A stretch of DNA of 64,000 bases from contig NZ_JABWMH010000002.1 of the NCBI RefSeq assembly GCF_013371215.1, positions 620,001 to 684,000 on the forward strand, given 5' to 3'. The notes below the pieces were generated by a model. The model had not been told where the DNA came from. It worked only from the letters and a program-made list of their open reading frames with translations, and did not search any database. This stretch comes from Parasphingorhabdus flavimaris. Lineage in GTDB: Bacteria; Pseudomonadota; Alphaproteobacteria; Sphingomonadales; Sphingomonadaceae. The position numbers and the translations under genes were made by a program. Shown in pieces: positions 30,201 through 35,478 of this stretch (positions are counted from its first letter, which is position 1; the number at the start of each line of letters is the position of its first letter).

Positions 30201-30632
30201 CTAGAAAAGCGTGGCCCACAGCGCGTTGATCGCCATGATCAGCAGGCATATCGTCGAAGCCACGAACAGCAGAAAGCGGACATTGACCAGATTGACCGTC
30301 GCCTGCCAGATGCTGTGAATGATCCTGATGACCACATAGGCCCAAGCGAGATAGAGATTGAGCCCGTGACCGGCACCGGTGATCGCGAGAATGACAGCCG
30401 TCGCGTAAAACAGCGTCGGCTGCTCCATCAAATGGGTGTAATTGTGTGACTTCCAGTTGACCTTGTCGGGGATTACCCCTTCGAGATCGCTGCCCCGCCC
30501 GCCCGGTGCGGCCTTGGATAGATCCGCTCCTGACTTTGCCATGGCAGGGAATCGTGTGCCGGCCATCCACAACAACATGATCAGCGACCATAGAACAAGC
30601 ACCGCAGCGGGCGCGAGAATAGCGATATCCAT
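30201..30632 (-). CDS. MAPEG-family membrane protein (copy 2)
   Basis: A 143-residue protein with four helices and KSHNYTHLMEQPTLFYA, aligning end to end with copy 1 but clearly diverged. GGGAGGAAAAC precedes the ATG, a strong ribosome site, so it is the first gene of the pair. Upstream is an imperfect palindrome AATTG..CAATT at 30670-30690, which could be an operator. The pair follows the polyamine operon in the same direction. Confidence 0.88.
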   Translation of the reverse strand: MDIAILAPAAVLVLWSLIMLLWMAGTRFPAMAKSGADLSKAAPGGRGSDLEGVIPDKVNWKSHNYTHLMEQPTLFYATAVILAITGAGHGLNLYLAWAYVVIRIIHSIWQATVNLVNVRFLLFVASTICLLIMAINALWATLF

Positions 30633-30707
30633 AATTGTTTTCCTCCCGAAATCGGAAAGAAACTGCTTTAATTGTAACCGATTGTCAATTGCAACCTAGT
30701 TGGGAGG

Positions 30708-31907
30708 TCAGGCGCTCGGAAAAGACACAACATTGTCGCGATCGGAACGGTCCAGATTATCGCCGACATAGAGGCTGGCCATCGGTTCGTCGGTGACATC
30801 ATGCTCTTCGCTGCTGCCATAGCCGTTGAACTTGGTCCGCATCGCCGACCCATAGGCGCCGATCATGCCGATCTCGATATAATCTCCGGCCCTGATGTCG
30901 TCGGGCAGGACAAAGGGACCCGCCATGAAATCCATGTCGTCGCAGGTCGGACCATAGAAGCTGAACCCGGTGGTTGTGCCGTTTTCAGCATCCGCACCGA
31001 CCTGGCGAACCGGAAAGCGCCATCCGATATGGGCTGCGTCAAACAAGGTGCCATAGGCTCCGTCGTTGATAAACAGCTCGTTGCCGCGGCGTCGTTCGAC
31101 CTTGACCACCAGCGAACTATATTCGGCCGACAGCGCCCGGCCCGGCTCGCACCAGAGTTCGGCGGAATAGCTGATCGGCAGATCCTCGAACGTACGGTCG
31201 ATTGCGGTGAAATAATGGTTGAGCGAAACCGGCTCGAGATCAGGATAGATCGACGGAAACCCACCTCCGACATTGACGATGTCGACCGTGACCGACGCGC
31301 CGACAATGGCGGTACGCACCCGTTCCAGGGCGTGGACATAGGCGAGCGGCGTCATCGCCTGGCTGCCGACGTGGAAGCAGATGCCGAGGCAGTCTGCCCG
31401 CTGCCGCGCCCGCTGCAGCAATTCAGCCGACTCATCGACATCGACGCCGAATTTTGAAGCGAGGCTGATTTCCGCGAATTCAGAGGCGACCCGAATCCGG
31501 ACGCACAGCGTAAGGTCTTCCGCCAGTTCGGTTCCCAGTTCGATCTTCTCAAGCTCTTCGAGACTGTCGAGCGAGAAAATCCGAACGCCATGCTCGCGAT
31601 AGGCCTCGCGTACCGAAGCCAATTGCTTGACCGGATTCATGTAGCAGAGCGTCGCGTCGGGCAGGGTCGCGCGGACGATGCGCACTTCGTCGATCGAAGC
31701 CACGTCGAAATGGGTCACGCCTTCTTCCCACAGCAATTGCAGCAAGGCAGGCGATGGATTGGCCTTGACCGCGTAGAGTGCCTTGCCGGGAAACTGATCG
31801 ACAAAATAACGCGCGGCACGACGCGCTGCGTGCGGACGATTCAACAAAACTGGAATGTCTGGGCTTAGAGCCTTCGTCAGCTCCTCAGCATCAAGATAAT
31901 GGTGCAA
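30708..31907 (-). CDS. Ornithine decarboxylase (fold III, PLP-dependent)
   Basis: A 399-residue alanine-racemase-fold decarboxylase. The PLP lysine is Lys48 in YAVKANP. HVGSQ, VNVGGGFPS and EPGR are present, and Cys322 in GPTCDDMD is the catalytic cysteine of ODC/DABA-type enzymes. It should make putrescine from ornithine. The start is TTG 31907; no ATG is near and AAGGGGG lies nine bases ahead. It is the last gene of the polyamine operon and is preceded by a structured 141-base leader with its own ORF, whose TGA is one base before the TTG. This suggests leader-controlled translation. Confidence 0.93.
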   Translation of the reverse strand: MHHYLDAEELTKALSPDIPVLLNRPHAARRAARYFVDQFPGKALYAVKANPSPALLQLLWEEGVTHFDVASIDEVRIVRATLPDATLCYMNPVKQLASVREAYREHGVRIFSLDSLEELEKIELGTELAEDLTLCVRIRVASEFAEISLASKFGVDVDESAELLQRARQRADCLGICFHVGSQAMTPLAYVHALERVRTAIVGASVTVDIVNVGGGFPSIYPDLEPVSLNHYFTAIDRTFEDLPISYSAELWCEPGRALSAEYSSLVVKVERRRGNELFINDGAYGTLFDAAHIGWRFPVRQVGADAENGTTTGFSFYGPTCDDMDFMAGPFVLPDDIRAGDYIEIGMIGAYGSAMRTKFNGYGSSEEHDVTDEPMASLYVGDNLDRSDRDNVVSFPSA

Positions 31908-31908
31908 C

Positions 31909-32049
31909 TCAAGGGACCCCCTTATAGGCTAAGATCGATTGAGCTGCCTTGCGGATACGCAAGCGGCCATGGGGCAGCAAGGCGCGGCTATATGGCCACT
32001 TGATCGCCCTGTAAAGACCGAAGTCCTTACAGAAGCTGAACAAAGACAT
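31909..32049 (-). CDS. 46-codon ORF between nspC and ornithine decarboxylase (putative leader peptide)
   Basis: ATG 32049 lies three bases after the nspC stop, and the TGA (31911-31909) is one base before the ODC TTG, so the ORF fills the gap exactly. The peptide starts MSLFSFCKDFGLYRAIKWPY and ends RKAAQSILAYKGVP; it is basic, with no known domain. The ODC ribosome site AAGGGGG lies within its last codons, so a ribosome finishing or stalling here would control ODC. There is no strong ribosome site for the ORF itself. It could be a leader peptide, or an accident of a structured RNA. Confidence 0.45.
   Translation of the reverse strand: MSLFSFCKDFGLYRAIKWPYSRALLPHGRLRIRKAAQSILAYKGVP
31912..32040 (-). 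ncRNA. Structured cis-regulatory leader of ornithine decarboxylase (speF-type candidate)
   Basis: On the minus strand the region folds readily. A 10-base stem closes a UUCG tetraloop (32009-32032). CTTGCG-TATC-CGCAAG lies at 31948-31963. GGCAGC/GCTGCC (31973-31978 with 31943-31948) and GGCCAT/ATGGCC (31965-31970 with 31992-31997) interleave, so they are alternatives or a pseudoknot. A conserved alphaproteobacterial 5' element before ODC genes, the speF motif (Rfam), is known from comparative work; the match is by position and character, not by a covariance search. Confidence 0.55.
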
Positions 32050-32052
32050 TTT

Positions 32053-33222
32053 TTAGCTGAGCCGATCCCTGAATTCGGTCCAGTCGAAGGATTTGACGCA
32101 GCGCAGCGTATCGCTTTCACTGTTCCAGAGCCAGATCGATGGCAGTGGAACGCCGTTGAACGTGTTGGTCTTGACCATCGAATAATGCGCCTGATCAAGA
32201 AATGCGATACGCTGTCCGATATAGGGTTCATCGGGCAGGATATAGTCGCCGATAATATCCCCGGCGAGGCAACTGGGACCCCCGAGTCGGATCGCGGTGC
32301 CTTCGGGACGCTCTCCGAGCATCGCTGGACGATAGGGAGCCTCGATTACGTCGGGCATATGGCAGGTTGCCGATATATCGGTGATCCCGACCGGCATGCC
32401 ATTGTCGAAGACGTCCAGTATCTCGCCGACCAAGATGCCCGCATCCAGCGCCACGGCCTCACCGGGTTCCAGATAGATTTCGCATCCCGACCGCGCTTTC
32501 AGGTTCTTCAGGAAGTCCACCAGCGCCTCGCGATCATAATCCTCGCGCGTTATATGATGCCCGCCACCCAGATTGATCCATTTGAGCGAGTCGAAATGGG
32601 GCGCGATGACTGGCTCCACTTTTTCCCAGGTTTGCTGCAGGGCATCGAAACCCTGTTCGCACAGATTGTGGAAATGGATACCGGACAGATGCTGAAAATG
32701 ATCGGGCGCCAGCTGGCTGATCGGAAAGCCCAGCCGGCTGTGCGGCTGGCTCGGATCATATTTCTCTGTCTCGCCCAGCGCGATCTCCGGATTAATTCTT
32801 AAACCAATTTCAGAAATATCGATCGTAATATCTTGAGTAAAATCACTTTTCCAACGCTCGACCTGCTGTGGATTGTTAAAGGTAATATGTTCGGAAATCT
32901 CGGCCAATTCGGCCAAATCCGCAGCCTTGTATGCCGGAGAATAAGTGCTGATCGGCCCGTTATAGCACTCCTTCGCCAACCGCGCCTCCCACAGACCGGA
33001 AGCGCAATAGCCATCGAGATATTCGTCAATCAGCGGGGCGAGGGACCACATCGAAAAGGCCTTTAGGGCCAGCAGGACCCTGGCACCGGAACGCGCTTTG
33101 ATATCAGCCAGAATCTCCAGATTCCGGCGCACCGCTACTTCGTCGACAACGAAGGCAGGCGAGGGAATGCGGTTCAGATCGAAATGCGCAAAAGCGCCGG
33201 GATCGCCAGCCTTGGTCTCCAT
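32053..33222 (-). CDS. nspC: Carboxynorspermidine/carboxyspermidine decarboxylase
   Basis: A 389-residue fold-III PLP decarboxylase that removes CO2 from carboxy(nor)spermidine to give the triamine. The PLP lysine is Lys54 in LALKAFSMW (the KAFSMW variant is typical of NspC rather than ODC or DAP decarboxylase). NLGGGHHI, EPGEAVALDAG and GGPSCLAGD are present. Its ATG is one base after the stop of the upstream dehydrogenase gene. With that gene and ODC downstream it forms a complete polyamine operon. Confidence 0.95.
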   Translation of the reverse strand: METKAGDPGAFAHFDLNRIPSPAFVVDEVAVRRNLEILADIKARSGARVLLALKAFSMWSLAPLIDEYLDGYCASGLWEARLAKECYNGPISTYSPAYKAADLAELAEISEHITFNNPQQVERWKSDFTQDITIDISEIGLRINPEIALGETEKYDPSQPHSRLGFPISQLAPDHFQHLSGIHFHNLCEQGFDALQQTWEKVEPVIAPHFDSLKWINLGGGHHITREDYDREALVDFLKNLKARSGCEIYLEPGEAVALDAGILVGEILDVFDNGMPVGITDISATCHMPDVIEAPYRPAMLGERPEGTAIRLGGPSCLAGDIIGDYILPDEPYIGQRIAFLDQAHYSMVKTNTFNGVPLPSIWLWNSESDTLRCVKSFDWTEFRDRLS

Positions 33223-33223
33223 A

Positions 33224-34441
33224 TCAAAAGGGCAAAGGTCCTTCCAATTCTTCCAGTGTCCATGGCAAGCCGTGCTCGTTCAGCATTGCCATGAACGGGT
33301 CCGGATCAAACTCTTCCATGTTGAAAACGCCTTGGCCGCGCCACTCACCCGATACCATCATCGCTGCGCCAATCATCGCCGGAACGCCGGTGGTATAGCT
33401 GACGCCCTGATTTCCGGTTTCCTCGAAAGCCGCTTCATGGCTGCAGATATTCTTGACGTAGAGCGTCTTCTGAACGCCGTCTTTCACGCCGGTCGCGATC
33501 ACGCCGATATTGGTATTGCCCTTGGTCGTTTCGCCCAGGCTCGCCGGTTCGGGCAATACGGCTTTCAGAAACTGCAGTGGAATGATCTCGCGCCCCTCGT
33601 ACATCACCGGGTCAATCCGCGTCATCCCGACATTCTGCAGCACTTCGAGATGGGTCAGATAGGCGTCGCCAAAGGTCATCCAGAAGCGAATCCGCTGGAT
33701 CTCCGGCAAGTGGGTTTTCAGCGATTCGATTTCTTCGTGATACATCTGGTACATGTTCTTCGGGCCGACCGCTTCAAAGTCGAATGTCTGCTTGTGGGTC
33801 AGCGGCGGACCTTCGACCCATTCGCCATTTTCCCAGTGCCGTGAGTTGGCGGTGACTTCCCGGATATTGATCTCGGGATTGAAATTGGTCGCGAAATGCT
33901 GGCCGTGATCGCCGCCGTTGCAGTCGAGAATATCGAGCGTGTCGATCCGGTCGAAATGATGTTTCTTCAGCCAGCAGGTGAACACGCTGGTGACGCCAGG
34001 GTCAAAGCCGGAGCCGAGCAGCGCCATGATCCCGGCATCCTTGAACCGGTCCTGATAATCCCACTGCCACTTATACTCGAACTTGGCCTCGTCGCGCGGT
34101 TCGTAATTGGCGGTGTCGAGATAATCGGTGCCGGTCGCCAGGCACGCATCCATGATCGGCAGGTCCTGATAGGGGAGCGCCAGATTGACCACCAGAACCG
34201 GCTTTTCCCGCTCTATCAGCGCGGTCAGCGCCGGCACGTCGTCGGCGTCGATCTGCGCGGTGGAAATGGCCACGCCCGTGCGCTGCCTGACCGACTCGGC
34301 GATCGCGTCGCATTTTGACAAGGTCCGGCTGGCCAATATAATCTCCGAAAAGGGCCCGCTACCCGCCGCGATCAGTTGTGCCATCTTGTGCACCGCAACT
34401 GAACTGACGCCGCCTGCGCCGATCACCAAAATTTTGCCCAT
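33224..34441 (-). CDS. Carboxynorspermidine dehydrogenase (saccharopine-dehydrogenase fold)
   Basis: A 405-residue NADPH enzyme that reductively couples aspartate semialdehyde to putrescine or diaminopropane, giving carboxyspermidine or carboxynorspermidine. Rossmann motif VIGAGGVSSVAVHK is at the amino end, with TGTDYLDTANYE, LLGSGFDPGVTSVF and CNGGDHGQHF characteristic of the CANSDH group. ATG 34441 follows GAGTGGA; a GTG three codons upstream is less likely. It is the first gene of the polyamine operon, divergent from threonine dehydratase with a 53-base gap. Confidence 0.93.
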   Translation of the reverse strand: MGKILVIGAGGVSSVAVHKMAQLIAAGSGPFSEIILASRTLSKCDAIAESVRQRTGVAISTAQIDADDVPALTALIEREKPVLVVNLALPYQDLPIMDACLATGTDYLDTANYEPRDEAKFEYKWQWDYQDRFKDAGIMALLGSGFDPGVTSVFTCWLKKHHFDRIDTLDILDCNGGDHGQHFATNFNPEINIREVTANSRHWENGEWVEGPPLTHKQTFDFEAVGPKNMYQMYHEEIESLKTHLPEIQRIRFWMTFGDAYLTHLEVLQNVGMTRIDPVMYEGREIIPLQFLKAVLPEPASLGETTKGNTNIGVIATGVKDGVQKTLYVKNICSHEAAFEETGNQGVSYTTGVPAMIGAAMMVSGEWRGQGVFNMEEFDPDPFMAMLNEHGLPWTLEELEGPLPF

Positions 34442-34494
34442 GAATTCCACTCTAAATGCTGGAGAAATAAGAAACCCGCATATAGGAAGAGACC

Positions 34495-35478
34495 ATGACA
34501 GAGCAATACCTGATGAGCCCGGACCGGCAACCTTCTCTGGCGGGGGTCGAGAGAGCGGCAGAAAAAATTGCTGCTATTCTGCCCGCTACGCCGCTGTTGC
34601 CACTGGACGTCGACGGTAAAACCATCTGGTGCAAGGCCGAATGTCTGCAGCCTATAGGTGCATTCAAAATCCGCGGGGGCTGGCACCGTCTGACCGATCT
34701 GACCGATGAACAAAGATCAAGGGGTGTGGTCGCATTCTCGAGCGGCAATCATGCGCAAGGCGTTGCCTGGGCCGCGCGCAAGCTGGGCGTGCACGCGACC
34801 ATCATCATGCCTGAGGACGCTCCTCAGGCCAAACTGGAGAATACCAGCGCATTGGGTGCCGACATCATCACCTATGACCGGATGAGCGGTTCGCGCGAAA
34901 AGCTTGCGGCTGATTTTGCGGAAAAGACCGGAGCGGTTGTGGTCCCCAGCTTTGACGATCCCTGGATCGTCGAAGGACAGGGCAGTTGCGGCCTGGAAAT
35001 ACGCGAGCAGATGCTGGCACAGGTCGGGTCCGTTCCCGACCAGATCATCGTCTGCTGCGGCGGCGGTGGACTGGCCAGCGGGACCGCTCTCGCCAATCCC
35101 GATGCACGCATGATCGTGGTCGAACCGGAAGGCTGGGACGATATGAAAAGGTCGCTCGAACTCGGCACCATTGTGCCGGTCGACAAGAACCCCCCTGCAA
35201 CCGAATGCGACGCGTTGCAGACGATGCAAGTCGCACAGATTACGTTTGATATATTACGAGATCGCAATGCCCTGGGGCTTTCGGTTTCCCGTGACGCGGT
35301 GCATCACGCGATGCGCGTCGCGTTCGAGAAATTGCATCTGGTTGTCGAACCGGGCGGTGCGGTTGCGCTGGCGGCGATATTGGCGGGCAAGGTGGCGCTG
35401 ACGGATCGCACCGCGATCACGCTATCCGGCGGCAATGTCGATCGTCAGCTGTTTGCGAATATTATCGCCGAAAATTAG
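34495..35478 (+). CDS. Threonine/serine dehydratase (PLP-dependent)
   Basis: A 327-residue fold-II PLP enzyme. The PLP lysine is Lys58 in [21 protein letters not shown] binds the substrate, and CGGGGLASG binds the phosphate. It lacks the carboxyl regulatory ACT domains of biosynthetic IlvA, so it is a short catabolic-type threonine dehydratase or a serine racemase-like enzyme. ATG 34495 follows GGAAGAGACC. Its TAG overlaps the reverse-strand TAA of hemA. Confidence 0.9.

Follow-up and report, generated by a model that had tools for sequence, protein, structure and literature searches.

The window analysed here, 64,000 nucleotides from Parasphingorhabdus flavimaris, carries on its minus strand a carboxynorspermidine synthase-like gene, nspC, a gap, an ornithine/lysine-type decarboxylase gene (ODC) and two MAPEG genes, in that order (Table 1). 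The closest relatives of the ODC with a solved structure are lysine/ornithine decarboxylases, and against the NCBIfam lysA model it scores 139.8, far under the cut-off of 297.9. nspC is located 5' of ODC in all 29 loci of the window's genus. The 156-nt gap stretch folds more stably than its shuffles (z -3.62; 1 of 200 shuffles equal). A perfect TTGACA-16-TATAAT at 34315-34342 (+) lies 5' of a gene for a PALP-family enzyme (34495-35478), which is divergent from the polyamine genes. Directly 5' of the MAPEG gene at 30201-30632 lies a block like TTGCAATTGACAATCGGTTACA (30655-30705 (-)), of which the 15 genus loci with a minus-strand ODC hold varied copies and which may be a promoter or operator.

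Table 1. Features of the polyamine locus and of the leader before ODC (window positions).
Feature	Position	Strand	Basis or remark
Carboxynorspermidine synthase-like gene	33224-34450	-	First of the polyamine genes; NCBIfam score below cut-off
nspC (carboxynorspermidine decarboxylase-like)	32053-33222	-	TIGR01047 378.3 bits, below cut-off 409.05
46-codon ORF of the earlier note	31909-32049	-	Judged accidental; no Pfam match
Promoter-like pair: -35 TTTACA (32015-32010), 17-nt spacer, -10 TATAGC (31992-31987)	31987-32015	-	Comparison of 176 elements
odc1 RNA element as matched by model R1	31904-31978	-	58.9 bits
CUGCC, 5' strand of conserved helix (published pseudoknot strand)	31973-31977	-	29/29 genus loci
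CUUGCG, left arm of local hairpin at the site of the P1 left arm of other genera	31958-31963	-	Genus loop comparison
CCGCAA, conserved, directly 5' of the GGCAG strand; also pairs with CUUGCG here	31949-31954	-	29/29 genus loci
GGCAG, 3' strand of conserved helix; GCAG common to P3	31944-31948	-	Genus comparison, folds
P3 left arm GCAGCUCAA	31939-31947	-	CUCAAU after GGCAG, 28/29 genus loci
Shine-Dalgarno sequence (SD) AGGGGG, paired within P3 in the predicted fold	31917-31922	-	Mean unpaired probability 0.03 (window, 30 C)
P3 right arm UUGAGUUGC, made up of the uORF start, AG, the ODC start and a C	31904-31912	-	P3 duplex -13.5 kcal/mol (window)
uORF, 11 codons, MSCTIILMLRS, stop TGA	31877-31912	-	Overlaps ODC start
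ODC (ornithine/lysine-type decarboxylase), UUG start	30708-31907	-	PF02784, PF00278

The gap contains a promoter-like pair, the counterparts of which are widespread. A TTTACA/CTTG-type hexamer located 16-18 nt from TA[TAG]NNN, 5' of CUGCC, was found in 165 of 176 elements against a shuffle mean of 1.85 of 176, with an expression picked after viewing the sequences and tuned by eye. In every one of the 25 commonest hexamer combinations the spacer is 17 nt. L226 and one other element, in which no helix strand was found, were left out of this count (an over-long loop is given for them in the energy count). The pair at 32015-31987 is not in the list of a general promoter scan of the window. Promoters of Zymomonas (Z. 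mobilis) are described as TTGNNN-17-TANNNN, with a 17-bp spacer and a 6-bp discriminator most prevalent (PMC7566282); judged by analogy, a transcription start would be expected two or three bases 5' of CUGCC, near 31980. As the promoter-like pair lies just 5' of the element, ODC is probably transcribed on its own transcript, while read-through from nspC into ODC may also occur. An earlier note on this DNA had proposed that ODC could be set separately from the carboxyspermidine genes, and the promoter-like sequences make this probable. Its description of the leader as lying within the operon and not at the 5' end fits partly, since the element stands directly 3' of a promoter-like sequence of its own.

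Membership and spread of the odc1 motif

The odc1 motif (uORF-25-1) was described by Brewer et al. 2021 (PMC8632094) from 272 alphaproteobacterial members. According to that description it has a stem P1 with the ribosome-binding site (RBS) in its right shoulder, a pseudoknot that involves the 5' end, a pair of UUG starts with two nucleotides between them and a uORF of 11 amino acids, and is associated with ODC and pfam01124 genes downstream; the element of Sphingomonas echinoides was tested by reporter fusions in E. coli. The gap in the window shares most of these traits. The two starts are found as TTG AG TTG at 31912-31905, preceded by an SD, an 11-codon uORF runs from the first of them, CUGCC can pair into the loop with GGCAG in 29 of 29 genus loci, and an ODC-like gene followed by pfam01124 (MAPEG) genes lies downstream. 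However, 23 of the 24 distinct genus elements, the window's included, lack the P1 stem that carries the RBS in its shoulder, and L028 alone has it; instead, a stem over both starts competes with the conserved helix. Because the P1 trait is missing, the genus form is classed as a variant of odc1 rather than a plain member, and CUGCC/GGCAG without P1 would be an ordinary helix rather than a pseudoknot.

A covariance model (R1) was built from 45 odc1-like elements, which were assigned to the motif by the description of Brewer et al. (PMC8632094) rather than from the published alignment; none of the loci used is known to belong to the genus of the window. R1 matches the gap with an E value of 5e-15, the second match in the window being one of 11.3 bits (E 0.1) within nspC. 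In the whole genome there is one significant match (E 2.6e-13; runner-up E 2.8). Collectively, the sequence traits and the model place the gap almost certainly among the regulatory leaders of the odc1 motif, in a variant form. Among 190 class genomes, R1 matched 12 at E<=0.1; three of these belong to the family, and the nine outside it scored 17.2-24.9 bits. When one locus each of seven of these nine was compared with ODC and nspC no match was better than E 1.0, and the outside-family matches were read as chance, although L252 reaches 24.9 bits.

Among 32 genomes of the window's genus, the ODC search yielded 29 close ODC loci, one genome giving no match and two a distant homologue only. One conserved block precedes ODC in all 29 loci, running CTTTACAG -> CTGCCCCA..GG -> CCGCAAGGCAG -> GGGG[GT]TCCC-TTG..TTGC. 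The pattern CTGCCCCA-N6-60-CCGCAAGGCAG occurs in 95 of 119 family genomes and its reversed control in 0 of 119. Of the 24 family genomes without the pattern, 23 have an ODC at E<=1e-60, and in 22 of these a varied, sometimes degenerate element before ODC was recognised by eye, so that odc1 precedes ODC in nearly all sampled genomes of this large family. A stricter pattern was found in 5 of 385 genomes of the class, exactly the five of the window's family. One pattern scan of loci returned at least 120 loci, with 80 of 120 among the matches listed. Of 150 loci with the first pattern, drawn from two genome collections in which some genomes are present twice, 142 have ODC directly downstream (counted by script); five of the other eight are too short to tell and three lie in unrelated bacteria without ODC. 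In L228, the remaining one of the 23, the SD and start pair are kept, the CUGCC/GGCAG helix is not recognisable and the uORF is longer, which possibly represents a decayed element.

Four typical odc1 members (L074, L061, L104, L211) gave no match to Rfam at the gathering score, and beyond Brewer et al. 2021 (PMC8632094), the one paper of the literature searched that has the term 'odc1 motif', no follow-up was found among the literature matches listed or in a word search of the 2024 sequel (PMC11109978). The motif is an orphan control element, poorly understood and unrecognised by the Rfam copy searched, which stands ahead of a central polyamine gene.

The earlier note had read the gap differently, as a speF-type leader with a 46-codon leader peptide and a UUCG-capped stem. 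The downstream gene family is indeed the same as that of the speF leader RF00518, an alphaproteobacterial ODC leader as described by Corbino et al. 2005 (PMC1273637), and the ORF fits the gap exactly, with AAA between the nspC stop and the ATG and a G between the TGA and the ODC TTG. The 10-base UUCG-capped inverted repeat is likewise present (32032-32009), and the ODC ribosome site does fall within the final codons of the ORF. However, the covariance-model check returned no RF00518 at the gathering score in the window, none at E<=10 in 31600-32300 and none at E<=1 in the organism's own genome, the last search using stricter filters than that of the window; RF00518 scores above its cut-off in 3 of 96 class genomes, the window's own not among them. 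Against Rfam as a whole, 31600-32300 gave at E<=10 only two eukaryotic families, both far under their cut-offs, and the whole window gave a single borderline match at the gathering score, far from the gap. This match is to the ffh sRNA (RF01793; 2004-2039 (+), 35.3 bits against a cut-off of 35).

Conservation also argues against the speF-type reading. Read back from the ODC start, the 46-codon frame has an ATG at the corresponding place in only 4 of 29 congeneric loci (L001, which is the window, L002, L008 and L012). The frame is open over the whole gap in 7 of 29 and interrupted after 3 codons in 15, and in one of these 15 (L028) even the final stop is absent. By the expression used, only 4 of the 29 loci have the whole UUCG repeat (the loop of L002 being UUGG), the right arm of which overlaps the conserved -35 hexamer. 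Both the ORF as a real leader peptide and the stem as a functional element were rejected as not conserved, and a speF-type leader has practically no chance of being correct. What survives of the leader-peptide idea is a structured cis-regulatory leader with competing pairings and a small upstream ORF; the real uORF has 11 codons rather than 46 and overlaps the ODC start. The speF leaders of other alphaproteobacteria at L031-L033 lie directly 3' of an ar45 sRNA match (RF02347) in 3 of 3 loci.

The 11-codon uORF and its stop

The uORF starts 5 nt before the ODC UUG, and its stop (31879-31877) begins 28 nt into ODC, where it takes up the last two bases of codon 10 and the first base of codon 11. 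Its length is 11 codons in 175 of 178 distinct elements, the exceptions being L076 (10), L090 (9) and one element cut by a contig end. Thirteen loci (L023, L099, L127, L148, L158, L180, L215, L221, L222, L223, L228, L229 and L233) were missed by the uORF expression and excluded from the stop-codon, stem-energy and promoter counts; an 11-codon uORF is present in 11 of them, that of L228 being longer and that of L158 ending too early. Outside the genus, ODC Val10 is GTA in 87 of 87 cases, although GTA makes up 3.8% of the Val codons of these genes; for Leu10 a codon ending in TA is used in 55 of 65 against a background of 1.8%. All three stop codons occur, and 1 of 153 elements outside the genus is without a stop at that place. 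Within the genus, the stop at codon 12 is kept in 24 of 24 distinct elements (TGA 20, TAA 3, TAG 1). One of the 178 elements was too short for the stop-codon count and was left out. The rare-codon argument rests on the other genera because codon 10 in the window's genus is mostly CTG, the commonest Leu codon. Since the letters of the stop vary while its function is constant, selection appears to act on the uORF rather than on the RNA letters, and these comparisons support selection on uORF length.

The start codons themselves are more flexible. Both are AUG together in L086, L127 and L233, and in L227 they differ (GUG and UUG), so that start identity is not always matched. An AUG inside CCCCAUGGG was considered as a leader start and rejected, the site not being conserved (AAGG or AGGG in many elements). 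Similarly, no common slippery site for a frameshift from uORF to ODC was seen by eye.

What the uORF does can be explained in more than one way. It could be a decoy or a stalling peptide that competes with ODC and whose peptide or codons sense ornithine or polyamine. The overlapping starts impose a choice between the two frames, and most of 60 uORF peptides listed open with LSCT or LNCT. Ornithine-sensing arrest is known from gammaproteobacterial speF leaders and offers a precedent. In enterobacteria, the SpeFL/speF leader places a uORF and alternative folds before ODC, the uORF preceding the gene; the window is alike in having a uORF and alternative folds but differs in that its uORF overlaps the ODC start. 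However, residues 5-11 vary widely among the peptides listed and no common arrest motif was seen in them by eye, leaving a sensing or decoy role distinctly unlikely.

Termination followed by a backward slip and reinitiation, as in the MS2 lysis gene, is another possibility. The first UUG would be the loading site; having translated the 11 codons, ribosomes would terminate 28 nt into ODC and then return to its UUG, and the fold would set how many of them load. The fixed uORF length and the stop maintained by rare ODC codons outside the genus, whichever of the three stop codons is used, agree with this account, as does the report that uORF fusions in E. coli gave about three times the expression of the ODC fusion (PMC8632094). 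Against it, the rule is broken by L090, L076 and L228, and a published ODC-frame fusion that ends before the stop was still expressed. According to the published description (PMC8632094), the S. echinoides uORF starts at nt 75, the ODC fusion extends to codon 8 of ODC (nt 103), and in the uORF fusion nt 103 is followed by a single added G. With 11 codons the uORF would have its stop at nt 108-110, implying that neither fusion, as described, carries the natural stop. The role of uORF termination thus lies beyond the published reporters as described, the constructs ending before the conserved stop, and a termination-reinitiation design, if true, would be undetectable by them. On balance, reinitiation as the driver of ODC expression is judged unlikely.

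Probable replacement of P1 by P3 in the genus

The core helix is shared by the whole motif. Across 45 diverse members, 99.6% of cells form CUGCC/GGCAG plus one flanking pair, and two of its pairs have changed on both sides; examples of such double changes, outside the window's genus, are CAGCC/GGCUG (4 distinct elements) and UCGCC/GGCGA (1). For three P1 pairs the figure is 99.3%, and no double-sided change was seen in them; the remaining P1 pairs were excluded from the count because the alignment shifts there. The whole-structure values were reached by 0 to 2 of 500 shuffles. Sliding the partners by +3 columns gave an equal covariation score (0.062), yet only 56.8% of cells then pair. In the other genera P1 (GGGACUUCC with GGAGGUCCC) would hide the SD, and its loop would contain the GGCAG to which CUGCC pairs. 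The P1 duplex has a mean of -19.5 kcal/mol in 154 distinct elements of these genera against -6.8 for shuffled loops, the weakest being -10.2 (L227). In four of their leaders that were folded, the SD was closed (unpaired probability 0.00) and the UUG codons had unpaired probabilities of 0.13 to 0.71.

In the window's genus the balance is different. The P1 duplex averages -8.8 kcal/mol in the 24 distinct elements (shuffled -8.0), or -8.4 without L028, and lies within 2.4 kcal/mol of the shuffled-loop mean in 23 of them. Local hairpins stand in place of the P1 arm, formed by CUUGCG or CUUGUG with CGCAAG or, in L013, by a 10-bp stem. The stem P3 spans both UUG starts with 9 bp and has four bases in common with the CUGCC/GGCAG helix. 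Its duplex averages -13.4 kcal/mol in the genus (shuffled -6.4) versus -6.8 elsewhere (shuffled -5.6). Although the genus loci have 11 kinds of linker and 12 of loop, 28 of the 29 retain the CUCAAU of its left arm. GCAGCUCAA together with UCCCUUGAGUUG was found in 9 of 10 genomes of the genus, whereas none of 387 from other genera has it. It should be noted that P3 is almost without covariation, the arms being identical in 28 of 29 genus loci and the right arm fixed anyway by the start codons.

Predicted folds, computed without pseudoknots or ligands, favour P3. At 30 C the P3 fold of the window leader reaches -38.5 kcal/mol versus -32.3 with the conserved helix forced, and the unpaired probabilities of the uORF UUG (0.02) and the ODC UUG (0.00) are as low as that of the SD. 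Eight genus leaders were folded, and in all of them except L028 the P3 fold is better than the forced conserved helix by 3.0 to 11.3 kcal/mol; in these seven the SD is unpaired with a probability of 0.03 to 0.29. Together, the energies and sequence comparisons suggest that P1 has very probably been replaced by P3 in this genus. The rewiring is apparently new and, as far as sampled, the rewired form is restricted to the genus. The mutually exclusive pairings of the earlier note are borne out in kind, GCAG (31947-31944) being able to pair with CUGC (31977-31974) or with UUGC at the ODC start (31907-31904); the 46-codon ORF and the UUCG repeat are not the conserved parts.

The best explanation as a whole, with a probability of roughly 0.7, is a genus-specific form of odc1 in which the leader governs start choice through competition between P3 and the conserved helix. 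The promoter 5' of the element would yield a separate ODC transcript with the CUGCC strand, judging by its position, at the 5' end. The leader would then decide between two overlapping UUG codons, the first opening the 11-codon uORF and the second ODC. In this genus GCAGCUCAA would pair with UUGAGUUGC, closing both start codons and burying the SD in a paired state. The helix and P3 each require GCAG, so that formation of CUGCC-GGCAG must open the start region. The conserved helix could then be the ON state for ODC, triggered by a signal such as the polyamine level or the state of the ribosome. In S. echinoides, Brewer et al. (PMC8632094) mutated strictly conserved bases just 5' of the pseudoknot bases; all three mutations abolished ODC-frame expression and two barely changed the uORF frame. 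The ON reading agrees with this loss, and the assignment of the helix as ON here, including switch direction and signal, falls a little short of even odds.

A metabolite riboswitch would be one way for such a signal to act, with polyamine, ornithine or another ligand held in a pocket made of CCCCA and CCGCAA. The loops are about as conserved as the helices, the helix has changed on both sides in some lineages, the SD lies within the fold, and a riboswitch is among the possibilities raised by Brewer et al. (PMC8632094). However, their text, in the part available, names no ligand, and the partner could instead be a protein or the ribosome; a ligand-binding pocket is therefore a tentative proposal, credible but rather less than probable. 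The spermidine riboswitch, a variant of the SAM aptamer (PMC10853860), shares the polyamine theme, whereas by its abstract the aptamer is different, and neither 'ornithine decarboxylase' nor 'Sphingo' was found in the text available. Comparing the P1 and P3 forms can reveal the ON state without knowledge of the ligand.

Returning to the competition between P3 and the conserved helix, the helix and the RBS-hiding stem coexist in other genera and exclude each other here. A bolder combination would be that the wiring of the RNA switch has been inverted in this one genus, with sensor core and uORF retained, so that an unchanged signal acts in reverse or at a different step, and that the uORF stop 28 nt into ODC also returns ribosomes to the ODC UUG; this combination is improbable.

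To what was described for odc1, the present analysis adds a promoter-like start, a strong test of selection on uORF length, compensatory changes in the core helix, and a natural rewired form with L028 as a possible intermediate between the P1 and P3 forms. L028 is the sole genus exception, retaining GGGGGCUUCC and a P1 of -18.7 kcal/mol. It belongs to the tenth of the genus genomes mentioned above, and its P3 arms are GCAGCGUUU and UUGCGUUGC. Beside P1 it thus has a weaker, 7-bp P3, in which a U-A pair has been replaced by G-C through changes in both strands. The predicted best fold of L028 contains P1 (-34.3 kcal/mol), and forcing P3 gives -28.9, a cost of 5.4 kcal/mol. In an ODC tree of 28 genus rows (L023 left out), L028 branches within the genus, its sister group being a set of 13 rows (98/84). 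As it keeps P1 yet branches within the genus, P1 was lost twice or regained, or the tree is wrong there, and the placement or history of L028 is uncertain. The loop UGGCCGCUUGCGAAU is present in both halves of the tree.
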